From Clostridium sp. (GTDB lineage Bacteria > Bacillota > Clostridia > Lachnospirales > Lachnospiraceae), in assembly GCA_023664605.1 (NCBI GenBank), contig JAMPFF010000023.1:1-42635 (forward strand): a stretch of DNA of 42,635 bases, written 5' to 3'. The position numbers and the translations under genes were made by a program. The notes under the pieces were generated by a model. That model searched no databases. It was not told where the DNA came from and was given only the letters and a program-made list of their open reading frames with translations. Below are positions 1-6,561 of this stretch, piece after piece (the stretch's first letter is position 1; the number at the start of each line of letters is the position of its first letter).

Positions 1-71
1 CAATTCTGTTATGAAGTTACTATTATTATATCCCATTGATCACAACCGCACAATCTATTTTTACGATTGCT

Positions 72-258
72 CTACTACACCATTTACTACACCATTTTCC
101 CCAAAAATGACGACCTTTGACGAGTCAAGACAAAATGTACAATGTGCCGCAAAGCCCGTAAAATAGGCGCTTACGGCACACCATGAAACAAGACGGGAAC
201 CACCTCTTACTAACAAGAGGCGAGTGCTAATAATTTTATTAAGATTTTGCATACTCAG
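72..258. repeat. Left copy of ~187-bp direct repeat bounding the island
   Basis: This segment aligns almost without gaps to 4111-4297 in the same orientation, at roughly three-quarters identity by eye. Well conserved blocks are the CTACTACACC/ATTTACTACACCATTTT start, GTGCCGC, TGTAAAATAGGC-like and TACGGCAC in the middle, and CAAGAGG plus CTAATA/TTTTATTAA at the right end. On the minus strand it lies just downstream of the integrase remnant at 355-462. A 63-codon open frame runs through it on the minus strand but has no ribosome site and is probably not a gene. The repeat could be the 3' flank shared by two related integrated elements; its divergence argues against a recent att duplication. 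Confidence 0.7.
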
Positions 259-354
259 TATTTATGCGGGTTTTACTTTTTCTAAAATTTTATAATAACA
301 TATGTTATGCACCAATTTTACACCATTCTATTTTGGGGTTTAAGTTGTTAGGAC

Positions 355-462
355 TTAACAGCTTGCTGCAAGCGCATACCGCTCCACTTCTTCCCCCACA
401 TTCTGCCTGCTTCCAACATGATTATATACATCCAACGTCACATCATTGTTGGCGCGACCCAT
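355..462 (-). pseudogene. C-terminal remnant of a tyrosine recombinase/integrase
   Basis: The minus strand reads MGRANNDVTLDVYNHV followed by about 19 residues and a stop. This matches the end of phage/ICE tyrosine recombinases, where an MGH-type motif is followed by DVTxDVYNH, with the catalytic tyrosine in VYNH. An in-frame TAG lies a few codons upstream, so the core catalytic domain (Arg-His-Arg) is missing. Only about 35 codons remain, so it cannot be active. Its position beside the left repeat suggests the island came in with an integrating element that has since decayed. Confidence 0.7.
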
Positions 463-608
463 CCAAAATGCATCAAACTAAAACGCGTTCATTTTATAAT
501 ATTGCTAAACATCTGGGATCTCCACCTAATATTGTATATTAAATGAAAAAACTCCTACTCCAAATGATTAATAAGTAAGAGTTTTTGATGATATAATTTT
601 GTCCATTT
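463..608. other. AT-rich gap between integrase remnant and cassette
   Basis: No coding frame with a ribosome site was found. Around 545-595 there is an AT-rich stretch containing CTCCTACTCC and GTAAGAGTTTTT that could hold a weak terminator for the leftward cassette, but I could not define a clean stem. Confidence 0.3.
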
Positions 609-2033
609 TTAGGAAAAATCATTTAACAATATAATTTCCTCTTCAATAGTAATTGGCGTATCTGTCAAAAAAATACTTTTCCGTGTAGTTGGATTTAGTG
701 TTGGATTGGCTATTATCAAACTTCGCTTATCGTTTTTGGCACCAATTTCTAACACCCAAATATAATGTGGTAAATTTTGTGAAAGCAATCTCTTTATTTC
801 AAGCTCTTCTTCTTTTTCATACTCTTCATCAATTTTATCCTTCGATTTACCTTTACGAATATGTAATAGCCTGCTAAGATATTCCTTAATAGTATTGTTA
901 TCCGCAACTAATACTCTTTTATAAGTTTGACTTTCTATTTCTTGCAAACGCTTTAAATGGGAATCACAATGTCTGTGAATCAATTCATCATATAAAGTAT
1001 AAATCTTCTCATGCAATGGATACATGATAAAGCCACATTCATATTTATTATCTTCATCCTCTTGCAGCATTTCTTTTATCTCATCCCATGTTGCAATGTC
1101 CACAAACGAAACACCAATATTTTTTAGATGATATTTATAAGCAATATAATAACCAGAATCATCATAAATAATATATTTCCTCTCACCGCTTTCACTTAAA
1201 GTATATCCGACTATTTGAACTACATGTTCACCGCTTTCTTCTTCGTCTTCAACCGTTGTGTGAATACCTAACAAAACAGGCATAGCACTCTCAACACAAA
1301 AATCTATGTGTGCTCTTACCGCTTCATTCATTTTGTCGCTATACAATTTATAATCTATGGGGATTCCATTGGTATCCAAAATCTCAAGCATTTGAATCGG
1401 ATCCAACCCCATTGTAGGATAAATTTTTTTCCTGCCGTAGGTGTAACTATCATTGATATCTAATATCCGGATATTCTTATAATTATATTTACCCTTTAAA
1501 TATCTTGACATCGAAATCATACTTGCATGAGAGCAACTTGTCACTACCGAATCTTGAACAAACAAAGGATACGTGTACATAATCAATTCTTTCCCATAAA
1601 TATGTACTCGTTTTTTGTATGTCATAAAATAGCTGTCCTCAGCTAAATTCCCTAACAAGTTTTTCCAATTTGGATATACATAAGAAAGCATTAATTCAGT
1701 ATCATCAATACTTCTTAATGTAAAAAAGCCCAAATAATTCTCATTACTTACTTGCTGTTCACTAAACAGGTGTACTCTCATAACAGTTCTTTTGGTTTGA
1801 TATGTAGTATTAATATAATGCACACTTATCATATCTTTCCACTCTGTTTCAGTGTACTCTTCTTCAAATATATAGTAGATAGTCTTATGCTTATAAAAAA
1901 TCTGTAAACGTGGAAATATGTATGTTTCAACAAATTTCTCTAAATTGTTTTTTTCCTCGGAGCTAAACTCGACAACTTTCTTAATGTCTTCGCTTAATTC
2001 GAATGGCTTAAACTGCTTGAATGGAATTCTCAT
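609..2033 (-). CDS. Papain-like/C39-like cysteine protease-fold protein
   Basis: A 474-residue protein, last gene of the leftward cassette. Its ATG sits directly after the stop of the preceding small gene (TAGATG), with AGAAGG as ribosome site. Residues ~155-310 look like a papain-like C39-type fold: Gln160 then Cys167 in QDSVVTSCSHA, His270 in GEHVVQIVGY and Asp291/292 in IIYDDSG, the order Q-C-H-D expected for the oxyanion Gln and catalytic triad. The first ~150 residues and the charged C-terminal ~150 residues match nothing I know. There is no signal peptide or membrane segment, so it is probably cytosolic. A role as protease, acyltransferase (BtrH-like) or transglutaminase-like enzyme is possible; the fold call is inference from motif spacing only. 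Confidence 0.6.
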   Translation of the reverse strand: MRIPFKQFKPFELSEDIKKVVEFSSEEKNNLEKFVETYIFPRLQIFYKHKTIYYIFEEEYTETEWKDMISVHYINTTYQTKRTVMRVHLFSEQQVSNENYLGFFTLRSIDDTELMLSYVYPNWKNLLGNLAEDSYFMTYKKRVHIYGKELIMYTYPLFVQDSVVTSCSHASMISMSRYLKGKYNYKNIRILDINDSYTYGRKKIYPTMGLDPIQMLEILDTNGIPIDYKLYSDKMNEAVRAHIDFCVESAMPVLLGIHTTVEDEEESGEHVVQIVGYTLSESGERKYIIYDDSGYYIAYKYHLKNIGVSFVDIATWDEIKEMLQEDEDNKYECGFIMYPLHEKIYTLYDELIHRHCDSHLKRLQEIESQTYKRVLVADNNTIKEYLSRLLHIRKGKSKDKIDEEYEKEEELEIKRLLSQNLPHYIWVLEIGAKNDKRSLIIANPTLNPTTRKSIFLTDTPITIEEEIILLNDFS

Positions 2034-2213
2034 CTATATCCTTCTAAAAGTCGCCAATTTTCTTAAATCCGATTTTTTACATTTAGCACTTGTTGCCCTA
2101 TCATGCTTTGCTCCTGTAACCCTCTCATCAACAGATTTTTTATAATCATCCATTCCCATTCTTAACGCATTTCTTATTTCTCTATCTACTACATCATACT
2201 TTAATCTTGTCAT
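2034..2213 (-). CDS. Small basic protein, 59 residues, unknown
   Basis: This ATG is chosen because TAGGGAAAAG lies about nine bases upstream and because it clears the stop of the previous gene. A longer frame starts at 2267, but there the ribosome site abuts the start codon. The product is rich in Lys, Arg and Asp, with no membrane segment or cysteine pair: it opens MTRLKYDVVDREI and closes with LRKLATFRRI. It is translationally coupled to the protease-like gene (stop and next start are adjacent). It could be a regulator, substrate or inhibitor of that protein. No family recognised. Confidence 0.5.
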   Translation of the reverse strand: MTRLKYDVVDREIRNALRMGMDDYKKSVDERVTGAKHDRATSAKCKKSDLRKLATFRRI

Positions 2214-2230
2214 TGTTCTTTTCCCTATAC

Positions 2231-2407
2231 TTATTTTCGTGCAGGATGTTGTATTTTCCGTTGCCATCCTCTGAGTTTTTTCATGTCTTTGGAAGGCGTA
2301 TGAAGTGAAAAAAAAGATGGACGGCTTGTCTCATTTGTTTCCTGCTGCTTTACTGTATCTCTTTCATTTACAATACTTTCGTTTTCGTCTTCATTCGTTT
2401 TTCCCAT
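2231..2407 (-). CDS. Small hydrophilic protein, 58 residues, unknown
   Basis: The start is set by GAGGGA about seven bases upstream of the ATG; it falls 14 bases after the stop of the membrane protein. The N-terminal half is acidic and low-complexity (NEDENESIVNERDTV). The C-terminal part is basic and aromatic (MKKLRGWQRKIQHPARK), which might form an amphipathic or nucleic-acid-binding helix. It was not matched to any family. The two-halves charge pattern and the tight operon packing suggest a genuine micro-protein rather than a chance frame. Confidence 0.45.
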   Translation of the reverse strand: MGKTNEDENESIVNERDTVKQQETNETSRPSFFSLHTPSKDMKKLRGWQRKIQHPARK

Positions 2408-2420
2408 ACTCTTCCCTCTT

Positions 2421-2981
2421 TCAGATACTAACAGTAATTGCAAGAATCCATGTTAATAAACCAATTGAGATTACATACAAGCAATATGATATCACTACGT
2501 ATATAAAAGATGTATCATTAGTTTTCCTTAATGCTTCTGTGCTACTAGTGTATCTTAGAATCATATCATAAATACAATCCATTTCGCATTCATACTGTTC
2601 CGGATGTTCTTTAATTTCATTAAACATCCAAACACCGTCTGGAAACATTTCTGCGAAAATAGGTCTCTGTGCAATTAGTGCCAAAATGATACTAAATATA
2701 ATTGTTATCATCAAAATTACATATAGAGTCTTAACTAATTCGTTTAAATCGACTCCAAAGACACCTCTATCAACCAAAGCCACGACCAGATTAACTATTG
2801 CTATAAAAAGTGTACTATATTTTAGGATATTTTCACTTCTTGACTTGATACTTTCATATCTAGTCTTTTCTTGCTCATAAGCACACTTCCCTATATCCAA
2901 ACAATATTTTAGTTTTGCACAATCATTTTCATACATTTCATTACTATTTTGCTGGATTGGCTTACCCGAACTATCTTGCAA
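2421..2981 (-). CDS. Three-helix membrane protein (SLATT/PycTM-like layout)
   Basis: 186 residues if started at the TTG, which has a near-ideal extended ribosome site (AAAGGAGGTG) nine bases upstream. The GTG four codons earlier overlaps that site and cannot be used. An N-terminal soluble helical stretch (YEQEKTRYESIKSRSENIL) leads into hydrophobic segments at about residues 55-70 and 84-103. A soluble loop of ~55 residues and a third segment at about 159-184 follow. This layout resembles SLATT and DUF5706/PycTM membrane effectors of nucleotide-signalling defence systems, but I see no diagnostic motif. First gene of the cassette; it probably acts at the inner membrane together with the downstream protease-like protein. 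Confidence 0.6.
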   Translation of the reverse strand: MQDSSGKPIQQNSNEMYENDCAKLKYCLDIGKCAYEQEKTRYESIKSRSENILKYSTLFIAIVNLVVALVDRGVFGVDLNELVKTLYVILMITIIFSIILALIAQRPIFAEMFPDGVWMFNEIKEHPEQYECEMDCIYDMILRYTSSTEALRKTNDTSFIYVVISYCLYVISIGLLTWILAITVSI

Positions 2982-3037
2982 TACTTGTTCCACCTCCTTT
3001 TTAACGTTTCTATAGCCATGAGCAAAACTTCACACAT

Positions 3038-3052
3038 TCAGTATTTATGCGG
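3038..3052. repeat. Second copy of 15-bp motif TCAGTATTTATGCGG
   Basis: Identical to 255-269, where it touches the right end of the left 187-bp repeat. It lies in the leader between the cassette promoter and its first gene. A 15-base exact match within 3 kb is unlikely by chance, and the flanks differ, so it is a separate short repeat, possibly a recombination scar. Confidence 0.5.
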
Positions 3053-3118
3053 ATTGCGAGGCATGGCAAACCTCTTTTTCGCTCCATATTTATAGAAGCA
3101 ATCAACCTCTACTCTAAT

Positions 3119-3146
3119 AGTATAATTAACTTGCTACATTTGTCCG
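3119..3146 (-). promoter_or_regulatory. Possible promoter of the membrane protein/protease cassette
   Basis: On the minus strand a weak -35 (CGGACA, 3146-3141) and a good -10 (TATACT, 3124-3119) are 16 bases apart. This would give a leader of about 130 bases before the TTG start at 2981. The leader includes a small GAGG/CCTC hairpin near 3057-3075. Nothing else is seen in 2982-3297. Confidence 0.35.
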
Positions 3147-3297
3147 CTTTTTTGATATAAATTGCCCTTTCTTGTCCAGATTAGTTTCCTCCCCTCCCCC
3201 AATATTTAGCACTATATATTTTATCATATTAACGTTTGGAACATCAACCGCTAGGTTATGGGATACAAGAATCCATTCAATACAATATCTATTAAAT

Positions 3298-3711
3298 TTA
3301 TATCTTACTTTGACATTCTACCCAGAATTCATCCCCGCTACCCGGAGCAACACTATCCTTGCGTTGTACCATCCGGATTACCTTTCTCAGATTACTATTT
3401 TCTATAATATACTCAGCTATATCCCAAGATACCTTGCCACGCTCTGCCGCCGCAAGATCATATAGATAACATCTAGTGTCCATATGTTTCAATTCCAGCG
3501 CCTCAAATATTTCCTCCATTAACTCTTTCCCTGGAGGTTTATTATTTCCTCTTTCTATGTCACTGATATATGTCGGCGTCTTCTTTACTTCACTGGCAAT
3601 TTCACGTATCTTCAGTCTTTTCCTTTTTCTTATGATTCTTATGGATTCTCCAAAACTATATTTTCCCTTTTGAAACTCATGCAATAAATCTTCCCATTCT
3701 ATTTCGCTCAT
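3298..3711 (-). CDS. XRE-family HTH repressor of the island
   Basis: 137 residues. This ATG is preferred over one five codons upstream because GGAAGTGAG lies eight to nine bases before it. Residues ~20-75 form a HTH_3 domain: SFGESIRIIRKRKRLKIREIASEV, then the recognition helix region TPTYISDIERGNNKPP and a third helix. The C-terminal ~60 residues (after LELKHMDT) are unrelated to a known ligand domain and may dimerise. The gene has its own promoter with a palindrome at the start of transcription, so it is probably autorepressed. It reads toward the cassette and likely controls it too. This family commonly guards mobile elements and toxin-like modules. Confidence 0.85.
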   Translation of the reverse strand: MSEIEWEDLLHEFQKGKYSFGESIRIIRKRKRLKIREIASEVKKTPTYISDIERGNNKPPGKELMEEIFEALELKHMDTRCYLYDLAAAERGKVSWDIAEYIIENSNLRKVIRMVQRKDSVAPGSGDEFWVECQSKI

Positions 3712-3728
3712 AGCTCTCACTTCCATAG

Positions 3729-3777
3729 TTAGTTAGCTTACTAATTAATTTTTAACATATCATTTTCAAATTGTCAA
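3729..3777 (-). promoter_or_regulatory. XRE gene promoter with overlapping palindromic operator
   Basis: On the minus strand TTGACA (3777-3772) and TAAAAA (3754-3749) are 17 bases apart. The 16-bp near-perfect palindrome TTAGTTAGCTTACTAA (3729-3744, one mismatched pair) covers the expected transcription start. That placement fits autorepression by the XRE protein. Confidence 0.6.
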
Positions 3778-3865
3778 CTATAATTTCATTCGTGCTTCTG
3801 CTGTTTATGCTTTTCTTCAAAAATTATCAAAGTTATATGTTAAAACAATTCAGTATTCAAAATAA

Positions 3866-3902
3866 TTAAAGGAGTATCCTGTATATCAAGATACTCCTTT
3901 AA
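3866..3902. terminator. Long perfect hairpin
   Basis: TTAAAGGAGTATC (3866-3878) pairs perfectly with GATACTCCTTTAA (3890-3902) around an 11-base loop. There is no long T run on either side, so it may be a weak bidirectional terminator or part of a mobile relic. It lies downstream of the 57-codon frame at 3927-4100. Confidence 0.5.
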
Positions 3903-3926
3903 TCATCTACAATTTTGTTGTATATA

Positions 3927-4100
3927 CTACTCGTTTAGCAGGTAATAAATGTAATGCCAGTTCAATGTCTGCTGCCTTTTTAGATACTTTCCTGCTCCTC
4001 TGCCCGAAATAAAATCACCTCCAAGAATCACAAAACGCCCTATATTACACGCTACAAAGCACAATTCGCTATTATGAAGAAACCATATATACTTCTCCAT
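3927..4100 (-). CDS. 57-codon frame, probable gene remnant
   Basis: The minus strand reads MEKYIWFLHNSELC through VILGGDFISGRGAGKYLKR to YYLLNE and stop. The frame begins immediately inside the right 187-bp repeat and has no good ribosome site, but its composition looks protein-like (buried strand, GGDF, GRGAGK turn). It is most likely the C-terminal tail of a gene truncated when the repeat arrived. No family recognised. Confidence 0.35.
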   Translation of the reverse strand: MEKYIWFLHNSELCFVACNIGRFVILGGDFISGRGAGKYLKRQQTLNWHYIYYLLNE

Positions 4101-4110
4101 CCATTTAATC

Positions 4111-4297
4111 CACTACATCATTTACTACACCATTTTTTCACAAAATGATGATTTCTGATGAACTAAGATGAAATATAAAAAGTGCCGCGAATCCTGTAAA
4201 ATAGGCATCTACGGCACTTCATAAAACAAGTCGAATCCTGCTTCCAATTTCAAGAGGTGAGTACTAATACTTTTATTAAAATTCTAAAGAAACTCAG
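4111..4297. repeat. Right copy of ~187-bp direct repeat
   Basis: Partner of 72-258, in direct orientation. It separates the island from the truncated SUFU-domain gene (stop at 4346) at the end of the galactan operon. Between 4298 and 4345 a small TGCCA/TGGCA hairpin is the only structure that could terminate the leftward galactan operon. Confidence 0.7.
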
Positions 4298-4345
4298 ATA
4301 AAACAATCCACATGCCATAGTTGGCACAGGGATCGTCAACAATTC

Positions 4346-4798
4346 TCAGATCATTTTTCCCCGCTTCGGGTCAAGCACCCTCGGGAAATTTACCTCTGTC
4401 AATAAGTTCATCATTGGTTCAAATCCTTCCTCCAATTTATATAGAATTTCCTCTTTATACATGGGAATTGCCCACAAAAAATTAATCCTAGTGCCATCCT
4501 TACAGACCAAATCAGCGACTCCCGGATATGCTTCTCCCAAACCAACAACCGGCAGAAAGAAAAAACCGCCCATCTCCGTTCCTTCCCCAAGCGGAACATA
4601 ATCCTCTCCGTTTGGAAGCGTATGCCCCGTTCCCAGCCATGTTTTATATTCATGAGGAAATCTGGCAAGGTATTTCAACCATCTAATCGGCCAATAATAT
4701 GCATCACCCAACTTCTCCGCACTTTCTACCAACTCCTCCAATTTTCCAGTCTTTTGGCAGAAACTGGAAAAGTTCAGCTCTCTCATAATCTCCCTCAT
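4346..4798 (-). CDS. N-terminally truncated SUFU-domain protein
   Basis: 150 residues from the ATG that overlaps the stop of the permease gene (TGATGA junction). GGAGGGG lies eight to nine bases upstream, though that site is also permease coding sequence. The region WPIRWLKYLARFPHEYKTWLG, GHTLPNG, GGFFFLPVVG, INFLWAIPMYKEEI and LEEGFEPMM matches the C-terminal two-thirds of bacterial suppressor-of-fused domains. The usual N-terminal ~80-100 residues are missing; the protein starts near the ELTF-like strand (RELNFSSF). Such proteins often act as immunity or accessory factors for polymorphic toxins. Here it is probably a recombination remnant that happens to be translationally coupled to the operon. 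Confidence 0.65.
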   Translation of the reverse strand: MREIMRELNFSSFCQKTGKLEELVESAEKLGDAYYWPIRWLKYLARFPHEYKTWLGTGHTLPNGEDYVPLGEGTEMGGFFFLPVVGLGEAYPGVADLVCKDGTRINFLWAIPMYKEEILYKLEEGFEPMMNLLTEVNFPRVLDPKRGKMI

Positions 4799-5643
4799 CA
4801 CCCTTTCACCCCTCCTGCCGCCAATCCATTCTGAATAAACTGCTGCAGGCACATGAATACTATCATGACCGGCAGGGATGAAAGAACCGCCGCCGCTGAG
4901 AACAATGTCCAATGCGCAGCAAACTGGTCGCTGATAAATGACTGTAATCCTACCGCAAGCGTCATCTTTCCGGGCGTCTGCAAAAAGATAGACGTAATCA
5001 CATATTCGCTGTATGTGGCAATAAAAGAAAACAAAAAGATAACGGCAAGCTGCGGCATCGCCAGCGGCAGAACAATCTTATAAAATACCTGAAACTGATT
5101 TGCCCCATCCACCATTGCCGCCTCGTCCAACTCCACGGGAAGTCCGTCAATATATGATTTCAACAGCCAGATATTATAGGCGCTGCCCCCTGCCAGTACG
5201 AAAATCAACGCAATACTGCTGTCAACCAGCCCAAATTTGTAGATTAGGATATAATATCCTGCCACAGCCATGCTGTTTGGAAATACCTGCAGCACAAGCA
5301 GCGACATCAGCCCGTACTTTCGCCCTACGAAGCGAAGCCGCGCAAAAGCATATGCCGCCAGCGAGGTCAATATTAGCTGAATCATGGCAACGATAAAGCA
5401 AAACTTCAAAGAATTGAGTACCCATATGGGGAAATCAGTTTCCCGAAACAAGGCCGCATAATGCTCTGCGCTGAATTTTTCCGGAAACAGGGAAGATAGG
5501 AAAAAACTATCCCCTGCCGAAAAAGAGGACATAACAATCCACACTACCGGAAACATGACAATAATAATGGTAAGCCAGATAACAATTCTGCTCCCCCACA
5601 GTGCTCTCGCCTCCGCGGCTGTTATTTTTTCTTTCTTCTTCAT
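4798..5643 (-). CDS. ganQ: Galacto-oligosaccharide ABC permease, MalG/GanQ type
   Basis: 281 residues, inner-membrane half of the oligosaccharide importer. Six hydrophobic segments are visible, starting at IVIWLTIIIVMFPVVWIV. The cytoplasmic coupling (EAA) loop ELDEAAMVDGANQFQVFYKIVLP, which contacts the shared ATPase, lies at about residues 173-195. The end LAAGGVKG is the normal C-terminus of this family, so the protein is complete. AAGGAGG lies eight bases before the ATG, which follows the stop of the MalF-type gene directly. No ATPase gene is in the operon; Firmicutes importers of this class usually borrow a global MsmX-type ATPase. Gene name by analogy with Bacillus ganQ; substrate inferred from neighbours. 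Confidence 0.85.
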   Translation of the reverse strand: MKKKEKITAAEARALWGSRIVIWLTIIIVMFPVVWIVMSSFSAGDSFFLSSLFPEKFSAEHYAALFRETDFPIWVLNSLKFCFIVAMIQLILTSLAAYAFARLRFVGRKYGLMSLLVLQVFPNSMAVAGYYILIYKFGLVDSSIALIFVLAGGSAYNIWLLKSYIDGLPVELDEAAMVDGANQFQVFYKIVLPLAMPQLAVIFLFSFIATYSEYVITSIFLQTPGKMTLAVGLQSFISDQFAAHWTLFSAAAVLSSLPVMIVFMCLQQFIQNGLAAGGVKG

Positions 5644-6561
5644 CTAGTCAACCTCCTTGAATGAGCCGGACAGATGCATATTGACTAATGTAAAAGTTCC
5701 GACGATGATAAAAATCAGGACACTGAACGTTGCAGACAATTCATACCTGTTAGACCATGTTGTCATTTTATAGGTCGTGCTTGCAAGGATGTCCGTGTAC
5801 CCTGCAAACTGATTGTCAACCCTCGCCGGACCACCCTGCGTAATCATATAGATATTTCCAAAATTATTAAAATTAGATGCAAACGAAGAAATAACCAGCG
5901 GAATGGATAATTTCGTCACCATCGGCAGCGTTATGCTTTTAAAACACTGAAATCGGGACGCGCCATCCATCTTAGCCGCTTCATAGTATTCCGTCGAGAT
6001 AGCCTGCAGACCGCCAAGACACACATTCATCATATAGGGAAAACCCAGCCATACATTAACGATGATGAGTCCAATCCTTGCAAACAGCGGATTGGTTAGC
6101 CATGGTACATTCCACGCTATCCCAACTGCATGCAGAAGATTATTGATGCCGCCGTACTGTTCATTCAGCAGTCCCTGCCACGCCAGAATGGCAATAGTGG
6201 ATGGCAGCGCCCACGGCACAATCAATATCGCTCTGTATATCTTTGACTCTTTCATGTGCGGATTGTTCAATAAAATCGCAAGTATCAGCCCCATAGCATA
6301 AGAACCTGCAGTACTGAAGACCGCAAAGCACACCGTCCATCCAAGTACCGGAAAAAACACGCTCCTGATGCTCCCCGAAAACACAGTCAAATAGTTTTCT
6401 ATTCCGACAAAATCATAATCATTCAAGTGATACATATTATAATTTGTAAACGATAAAAACACCGTGTAGATAATCGGCAGACATGTCACCGCCAATATGG
6501 AAATCAATGCCGGAGCCAGATAGGTATATGCCATGACATTCTTTTTCTTTCTCATTTCCAT
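5644..6561 (-). CDS. ganP: Galacto-oligosaccharide ABC permease, MalF/GanP type
   Basis: 305 residues, partner of the MalG-type permease. It starts with a short basic stretch (MRKKKNVMAY), then the first membrane segment YLAPALISILAVTCLPIIYTV. The EAA coupling loop STEYYEAAKMDGASRFQCFKS is at about residue 205. GGPARVDNQFAGYTDIL is the typical late extracytoplasmic loop of GanP/MalF proteins. The gene starts three bases after the binding-protein stop; the second ATG two codons in is an equally good start (AGGG six bases before). It probably carries beta-1,4-galacto-oligosaccharides or related sugars. Confidence 0.85.
   Translation of the reverse strand: MEMRKKKNVMAYTYLAPALISILAVTCLPIIYTVFLSFTNYNMYHLNDYDFVGIENYLTVFSGSIRSVFFPVLGWTVCFAVFSTAGSYAMGLILAILLNNPHMKESKIYRAILIVPWALPSTIAILAWQGLLNEQYGGINNLLHAVGIAWNVPWLTNPLFARIGLIIVNVWLGFPYMMNVCLGGLQAISTEYYEAAKMDGASRFQCFKSITLPMVTKLSIPLVISSFASNFNNFGNIYMITQGGPARVDNQFAGYTDILASTTYKMTTWSNRYELSATFSVLIFIIVGTFTLVNMHLSGSFKEVD

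Follow-up and report, generated by a model that had tools for sequence, protein, structure and literature searches.

The contig JAMPFF010000023.1 of Clostridium sp., analysed here in full as a window of 42,635 bases, encodes a cassette of four genes on its minus strand, namely those of a membrane protein (TM), two micro-proteins (S1 and S2) and a papain-like enzyme. The cassette is real, conserved and rare, and its gene order is beyond chance, because it is kept in six loci and third codon positions diverge most in enzyme, TM and S2, and weakly so in S1. The enzyme and a micro-gene extend far past this subfamily, usually without TM. It is possible, at somewhat less than even likelihood, that the cassette represents the membrane-linked version of a modular conflict system in which the micro-protein controls the enzyme.

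Organisation and conservation of the cassette

All five open reading frames (ORFs) that an earlier sequence-only reading had placed in the cassette region were verified on the minus strand at the same coordinates. The conserved unit consists of four of them:

2421-2981, minus strand: TM membrane protein, 186 aa, with three long helices and three hydrophobic regions (AlphaFold pTM 0.64)
2231-2407, minus strand: S1 micro-protein, 58 aa, charged, poorly conserved and specific to subfamily 1
2034-2213, minus strand: S2 micro-protein, 59 aa, whose stop codon abuts the enzyme start (leave-one-out E 1.5e-20)
609-2033, minus strand: papain-like enzyme, 474 aa, comprising an N-terminal segment, a papain domain at about 130-340 (Q160, C167, H270, D291) and a C-terminal segment

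The gaps in the window are 13 nt between TM and S1, 17 nt between S1 and S2, and 0 nt between S2 and the enzyme. Tight coupling had been proposed for five genes; it holds for these four, but not for the XRE-type regulator gene, whose stop codon is separated from the start of TM by 316 nt. Since the window is one whole contig, only 608 nt are visible beyond the enzyme.

The same order, TM-S1-S2-enzyme on one strand, occurs in five further genomes, as the earlier reading had suggested looking for, which makes six loci (the window, L001-L004 and L017; subfamily 1). The intergenic gaps across these loci range from -17 to about 31 nt and vary with the choice of start codon; the enzyme coordinate used for L017 lies one codon after an ATG, from which the overlap with S2 would be 4 nt. 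L001-L004 were found by scanning species genomes with the window enzyme (best-segment identity 35-64%), while a search of 61 genomes returned the own genome, one more full relative in the genus (G012, loci L006/L017) and three distant relatives. When the window is compared with L001 and L002, the third codon positions of enzyme, TM and S2 diverge most, as in coding genes under purifying selection; between the window and L001, the identity of the enzyme gene at codon positions 1/2/3 is 0.72/0.82/0.46. The corresponding signal for S1 is weak (0.59/0.55/0.50).

The papain-like enzyme

The enzyme is papain-like in its predicted fold and catalytic residues. The AlphaFold model has a pTM of 0.85, and its best matches in the PDB are staphopain and phytochelatin synthase (top Foldseek matches 1y4h, 8oig and 1cv8), with C39 peptidase domains and CtaG also among the fold neighbours. 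The residues Q160, C167, H270 and D291/292, singled out earlier as a papain-like series, are present; Q160, C167, H270 and D291 are invariant in 21/21 aligned relatives and follow the papain order (oxyanion Gln, Cys, His, Asp), and D292 is found in at least 90% of these relatives (n=21). Because of the predicted papain fold and the invariant Q/C/H/D set, the enzyme is probably catalytically active. Proteolysis would be its presumed activity and the cytoplasm its presumed location. No hydrophobic segment was detected in the window enzyme, and one of the proteins nearest in fold, phytochelatin synthase, is a transferase. Three residues of the N-terminal segment, E57, R86 and G102, lie outside the papain domain and are likewise invariant in 21/21 relatives, possibly marking a second binding site.

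The structure prediction proposed for 609-2033 thus gave a papain fold with C39 domains among its neighbours, whereas none of 15 family enzymes matched BtrH_N (PF14399) at E<=0.1. The nearest Pfam family is Peptidase_C39_2 (PF13529), to which residues 155-292 align with E 0.0027, yet the window enzyme scores 18.7 bits and falls short of the gathering cut-off of 24 bits; its relative L043 reaches 24.7. Weak C39_2 similarity at E<=0.1 is seen in 8 of the 15 members. The enzyme differs from C39 and C39_2 peptidases in its length of 474 aa, its own flanking segments and the lack of an ABC transporter domain, no peptide ABC exporter domain being present in any of the 15 enzymes. When the profile of the family was searched against PDB sequences, nothing usable emerged.

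The micro-proteins S1 and S2 and the wider micro-gene

S2 is 63% identical to its homologue in L001 and 61% to that in L002, while S1, for which an ORF stands at the same place in all six subfamily loci, shares 38-40% identity with L001/L002. Sequence inspection revealed no Gly-Gly motif in either protein. S2 is taken as the counterpart of the micro-proteins in other loci.

A table of 25 enzyme loci was compiled, in which one ORF of 52-83 aa per locus was picked by eye. Left out of it were L040 (G766, a fragment at a contig end), L008 (G024, whose ORF calls are identical to those of L007, from which L018 also comes) and, as short duplicates, L005-L007, L009-L016, L030-L035, L059 and L061-L071. 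A micro-gene was assigned in 25/25 loci, and 23 of them lie on the enzyme strand, upstream of the enzyme in subfamily 1 and the plasmids and downstream in the remaining loci. Eleven of the 25 lie within -8 to +12 nt of the enzyme gene, a range chosen after the gaps were seen, versus 5 of 151 control genes. In three relatives fetched after the pattern was noted (G1217, G1551 and G1536), an ORF of 61-65 aa was found in each case, at +1, +3 and -4 nt from the enzyme stop; these three are among the eleven. Four plasmid records carry an annotated gene of 52-60 codons that precedes the enzyme gene by 55-84 nt. Within four homologous groups covering 14 loci, profiles built with one member left out recovered that member among 1,568 ORFs at E 2e-24 to 0.036, except for L004 (E 0.59). 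The micro-gene of L036 (83 aa, 72 nt away) is a weak assignment, without tight coupling, group homology or annotation. Such genes are easily overlooked by annotation.

A candidate C-terminal motif, an aromatic residue or Met at position -4, was present in 14/25 micro-proteins and was dropped because it occurs in none of the three later loci.

The membrane protein and the varying third gene

TM is counted as 186 aa from the TTG at 2981 rather than 190 aa from the GTG at 2993, as in the ORF list, because its homologues in L001 and L002 begin at the same place. It is present at the same position in 6/6 subfamily loci. Hydropathy analysis indicates three hydrophobic regions in the proteins of the window, L001-L003 and L017 and two in that of L004, and the model (pTM 0.64) contains long helices at 16-75, 85-109 and 137-189 with shorter helices between, which agrees with the three-helix layout read from the sequence. 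The likeness to SLATT or PycTM proteins that had been suggested is not supported by profile searches: the SLATT profile matched none of the six TM members at E<=1 (HMMER filters drop most matches above about 0.1), and PycTM (PF18967) matched one of six with 12.7 bits and E 0.17 against a cut-off of 27.2 bits. TM matches no Pfam family above cut-off. Structure searches with this model were uninformative, with a best Foldseek E of 0.12 and VIA matches at the level of helix noise.

While TM and S1 are the third genes of subfamily 1, other proteins are encoded elsewhere. The second group of loci (L018, L019, L020, L022, L026 and L073) has a protein of 186-210 aa downstream of the enzyme, and the third (L021, L024 and L025) has, upstream of the enzyme, a protein of 208-232 aa with conserved Cys. 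Of these nine proteins, five (L020, L021, L025, L026 and L073) have a hydrophobic segment above threshold and four do not. L072 encodes a 198-aa protein that has a single hydrophobic segment, and a 62-aa ORF upstream. On reading of the loci, no third gene is evident in L023, L037, L039, L060, L036 and the plasmids. A shared third partner was considered and rejected, the second-group profile showing no significant relation to the third group (E 0.54) or to the TM family (E 0.32).

Distribution of the enzyme family

The spread of the family is rare and patchy. In genome-set searches, across which the profile query alignment grew from A3 to A5, matches were found in 9/77 genomes of the genus, 8/397 of the family, 4/392 of the order, 4/391 of the class (one of them a fragment at a contig end) and 2/348 of the phylum, the own genome being counted. 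Three smaller genome sets yielded 1/10, 1/70 and 1/16, each being an already known genome. With the distant relatives L023 and L018 as tblastn queries, matches were obtained on plasmids of Mesorhizobium, Shewanella baltica, Pseudomonas aeruginosa and Hymenobacter (Pseudomonadota and Bacteroidota), and the same relatives were recovered with plasmid queries; a plasmid search with the window enzyme gave no match. No match was found in E. coli with one distant blastn query.

The pair and the four-gene cassette are unnamed in the searched literature and databases. PADLOC-DB 2.0.0 contains no family matching the enzyme, TM, S1 or S2 at E<=5, in agreement with the earlier statement that the cassette corresponds to no named system, and none matching the enzyme relatives L041, L042 and L060 at E<=0.01. 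No defence module made up of a papain-like enzyme and a micro-protein is described in the titles and abstract openings listed by the literature search, whose coverage excludes most subscription journals. Papain-like domains are mentioned in conflict or classification contexts in PMC7159879, PMC10318531 and PMC12419801, the available parts of which do not describe the present arrangement.

The XRE gene and the flanking repeats

Two further features lie upstream of TM:

3298-3726, minus strand: XRE-type regulator, 142 aa (HTH_3 E 4e-7, above cut-off), a local addition
3729-3744, no strand assigned: 16-bp palindrome just upstream of the XRE gene, a possible operator, TTAGTTAGCTTACTAA

The regulator matches the PADLOC models HTH_VI (1.5e-9) and capH (3.7e-7). 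It is peripheral, since no counterpart was found among the ORFs of L001-L004 (for L004, about 0.9 kb upstream, part of it masked) and L017 keeps only a 51-aa C-terminal remnant; together with the 316-nt gap, this rules it out as a core gene, and it is a local regulator or passenger. The palindrome, whose search pattern was written from this site, occurs once in the window with up to 3 mismatches allowed, and its position before the XRE gene is compatible with self-repression.

The region is framed by two copies of a direct repeat:

71-283, no strand assigned: left copy, 75% identical over about 175 bp to 4109-4283 and recurring in the genus
4109-4283, no strand assigned: right copy, pairing with 71-283

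The copies are diverged (75-77%) and lie 4.04 kb apart; of 37 genomes of the genus, 11 contain a match to the repeat, the own genome being one of them. In five of the six repeat stretches fetched (L053-L058), a PD-(D/E)XK nuclease-transposase-like gene stands within about 0.35 kb, accompanied in one of the five by an integrase gene; the nuclease-transposase call was made by reading, and Pfam confirms the two that were tested. The view of the region as a degraded mobile island is supported by the diverged copies of a repeat that recurs in the genus. A role of the repeats as integrase att sites is not supported. The ORF 355-462, which by eye looks like an integrase C-terminus, has no Pfam match, and no tRNA is encoded at 1-6000. 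Part of the repeat is also located at the end of the own genome's contig C29, next to a gene that by eye resembles ClpB. At 4346-4912, in the stretch that separates the cassette from a cluster with a sugar ABC transporter and GH53, the window encodes a member of the SUFU family (Suppressor of fused; Pfam E 1.9e-25).

Comparison with known systems

In staphopain operons the protease is encoded beside a dedicated small inhibitor, staphostatin; staphopains are secreted in zymogen form, and staphostatin has a length of about 105 aa. The present enzyme shares the papain fold with them (Foldseek 1y4h, 8oig and 1cv8), whereas it shows no detected hydrophobic segment, carries extra N- and C-terminal segments and is accompanied by a partner of about 60 aa. 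SLATT and PycTM effectors resemble TM in being small helical membrane proteins of putative conflict operons, but TM has no SLATT match and only the marginal PycTM one, and no nucleotide-signal gene was recognised in the operon.

The protease-activated antiviral pairs (nuclease-protease and caspase-nuclease) likewise combine a protease with a dedicated partner gene, and caspase and HamB-like helicase genes are found at L044. In the protease-activated effectors of bacterial defence described in PMC12799240, the protease is trypsin- or caspase-like and its partner a nuclease, in contrast to the papain fold and micro-protein found here. Sofic-AS1 (PMC12249575) is a defence enzyme with a downstream micro-protein antitoxin that counteracts its toxicity, a pairing similar to the one proposed here; its enzyme is a FIC AMPylase of unrelated fold.

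A possible conflict system and its alternatives

In the reading that is tentatively preferred, the constant core would be a papain-fold enzyme together with a micro-protein dedicated to it and some 60 residues long (S2 in the window). S2 would bind the enzyme and hold it inactive or steer it, like a cytoplasmic inhibitor, a pro-segment or an antitoxin, until a trigger, for example phage infection or the loss of S2, releases the enzyme, which would then cleave one or more proteins and halt the cell. In subfamily 1, TM may be either an anchor or a membrane effector that is activated by cleavage, and S1 may tune TM. That a probably active papain-fold enzyme recurs together with a small, rapidly changing protein is best accounted for if this protein controls the enzyme or serves as its substrate. 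Each step has a precedent in staphostatin, Sofic-AS1 or protease-activated effectors. A broader version is somewhat unlikely: a pan-bacterial immune or cell-suicide family resting on a single fixed pair, in which a three-part papain-fold enzyme would be gated by a fast-evolving micro-protein of about 60 residues and third proteins, several with hydrophobic segments, would be plugged in per lineage or be missing, the window carrying the membrane-effector version, a bacterial death pathway that would lead from a protease to the membrane without gasdermins or caspases.

Some neighbouring genes point towards defence; PADLOC was run on 13 neighbour proteins from seven loci. SIR2 (PADLOC E 8e-106) and HerA (E 9e-149) are encoded within 6 kb upstream of the cassette in L003. 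The neighbours are ThiF/E1 and multi-ubiquitin genes at L041 and L043, the gene of a TrlF-type ATPase at L042, and caspase-family and helicase genes at L044 (the helicase being HamB-like). In the SIR2-HerA stretch of L003 (1441-4214), HerA is split between two overlapping ORFs (2504-3766 and 3573-4214), perhaps through a frameshift or an assembly error. L041 and L043 lie on two plasmids of different genera, and their enzyme could also belong to the multi-ubiquitin/ThiF-E1 system. The 2,123-aa helicase-methylase of L024, taken as part of an integrative element, gave PADLOC matches too, with models of helicases and methyltransferases (best E 3e-17).

Several observations weigh against the conflict-system reading. 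Known or candidate defence-type neighbours occur at only these 5 of 25 loci (L003, L041, L042, L043 and L044), a count for which the neighbours of few loci were scanned and which has no base rate to compare with. At other loci, as named from translations, surface-glycan genes (L001, L017, L018 and L026) or housekeeping genes (lepA at L002, ribosomal/elongation-factor genes at L020, atp at L021 and clpX at L036) adjoin; at L023 (7493-9243), an enzyme relative and its micro-gene are located within a flagellar gene cluster, likewise named from translations. Four queries against 50,697 phage records gave no match, and viral contigs gave none either. The micro-gene is convergent, on the opposite strand, in L019 and L026, and 8 of the 25 micro-genes lie 153-733 nt from the enzyme, five of them past a third gene. 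Of 151 other long ORFs in these loci, 106 likewise have a same-strand ORF of 50-85 aa within 750 nt. Because such ORFs are common in controls and the micro-genes were picked by eye, mere presence says little and was dropped as evidence; the weight is carried by tight coupling, within-group homology and annotation only. Profile searches between groups of micro-proteins gave E 0.059 or worse. Two groups' profiles rank the micro-proteins of other groups better than 25/25 column-shuffled profiles, and that of subfamily 1 better than 22/25, three shuffled profiles doing equally well; homology across groups is thus merely hinted at, and a single micro-protein family is not proven.

It is rather unlikely that the micro-protein (S2, perhaps S1), TM or both are instead the substrate, the enzyme using its N- and C-terminal segments to sense infection and then cutting its partner, which would free an active peptide or open the membrane. 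The invariance of E57, R86 and G102 is consistent with such sensing, and hydrophobic segments are present in TM, in 5/9 other third proteins and in the 198-aa protein of L072, but several loci (the plasmids, L060, L023 and L039) lack an evident third gene and no cleavage motif is shared, the -4 residue being found in 14/25 and 0/3 later loci. Bacterial defence is known to include proteases that cleave a partner and thereby activate it (PMC12799240). Peptide processing or acyl transfer, in which a C39-, BtrH- or CtaG-like enzyme would process or modify the micro-protein to yield a secreted peptide or signal, is quite improbable. The C39 domains, phytochelatin synthase and CtaG among the fold neighbours and the weak C39_2 similarity in 8/15 members argue for it, whereas no peptide exporter or tailoring enzyme is encoded among the scanned right-hand neighbours in the window (on the left the contig ends at position 1), the ABC permeases encoded at 4798-6561 belong to the binding-protein-dependent type, and S1 and S2 lack the Gly-Gly motif; at other loci, the absence of exporters and tailoring enzymes was judged solely by reading translations. 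If the cassette were a selfish addiction unit of the toxin-antitoxin kind, carried by mobile islets and without a role in defence, this would account for the patchy spread, the flanking repeat copies that recur in the genus and the occurrence on two conjugative plasmids. Such a unit we regard as very improbable: the four-gene architecture with varying partners is richer than usual addiction pairs, and the core mechanism would be the same as in the conflict system, only the purpose being different.

The cassette may belong with protease-centred conflict modules, with a real chance of its being a new family. The constant core with varying partners leads to direct predictions for such a system: S2 should bind and control the enzyme, and TM or another partner should be the output. 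Caspase- and trypsin-types are, together with CHAT-type proteases, among the usual examples of proteases in bacterial immunity. If the pair of enzyme and micro-protein is an immune or suicide module, a papain-fold protease branch would be added to bacterial immunity.

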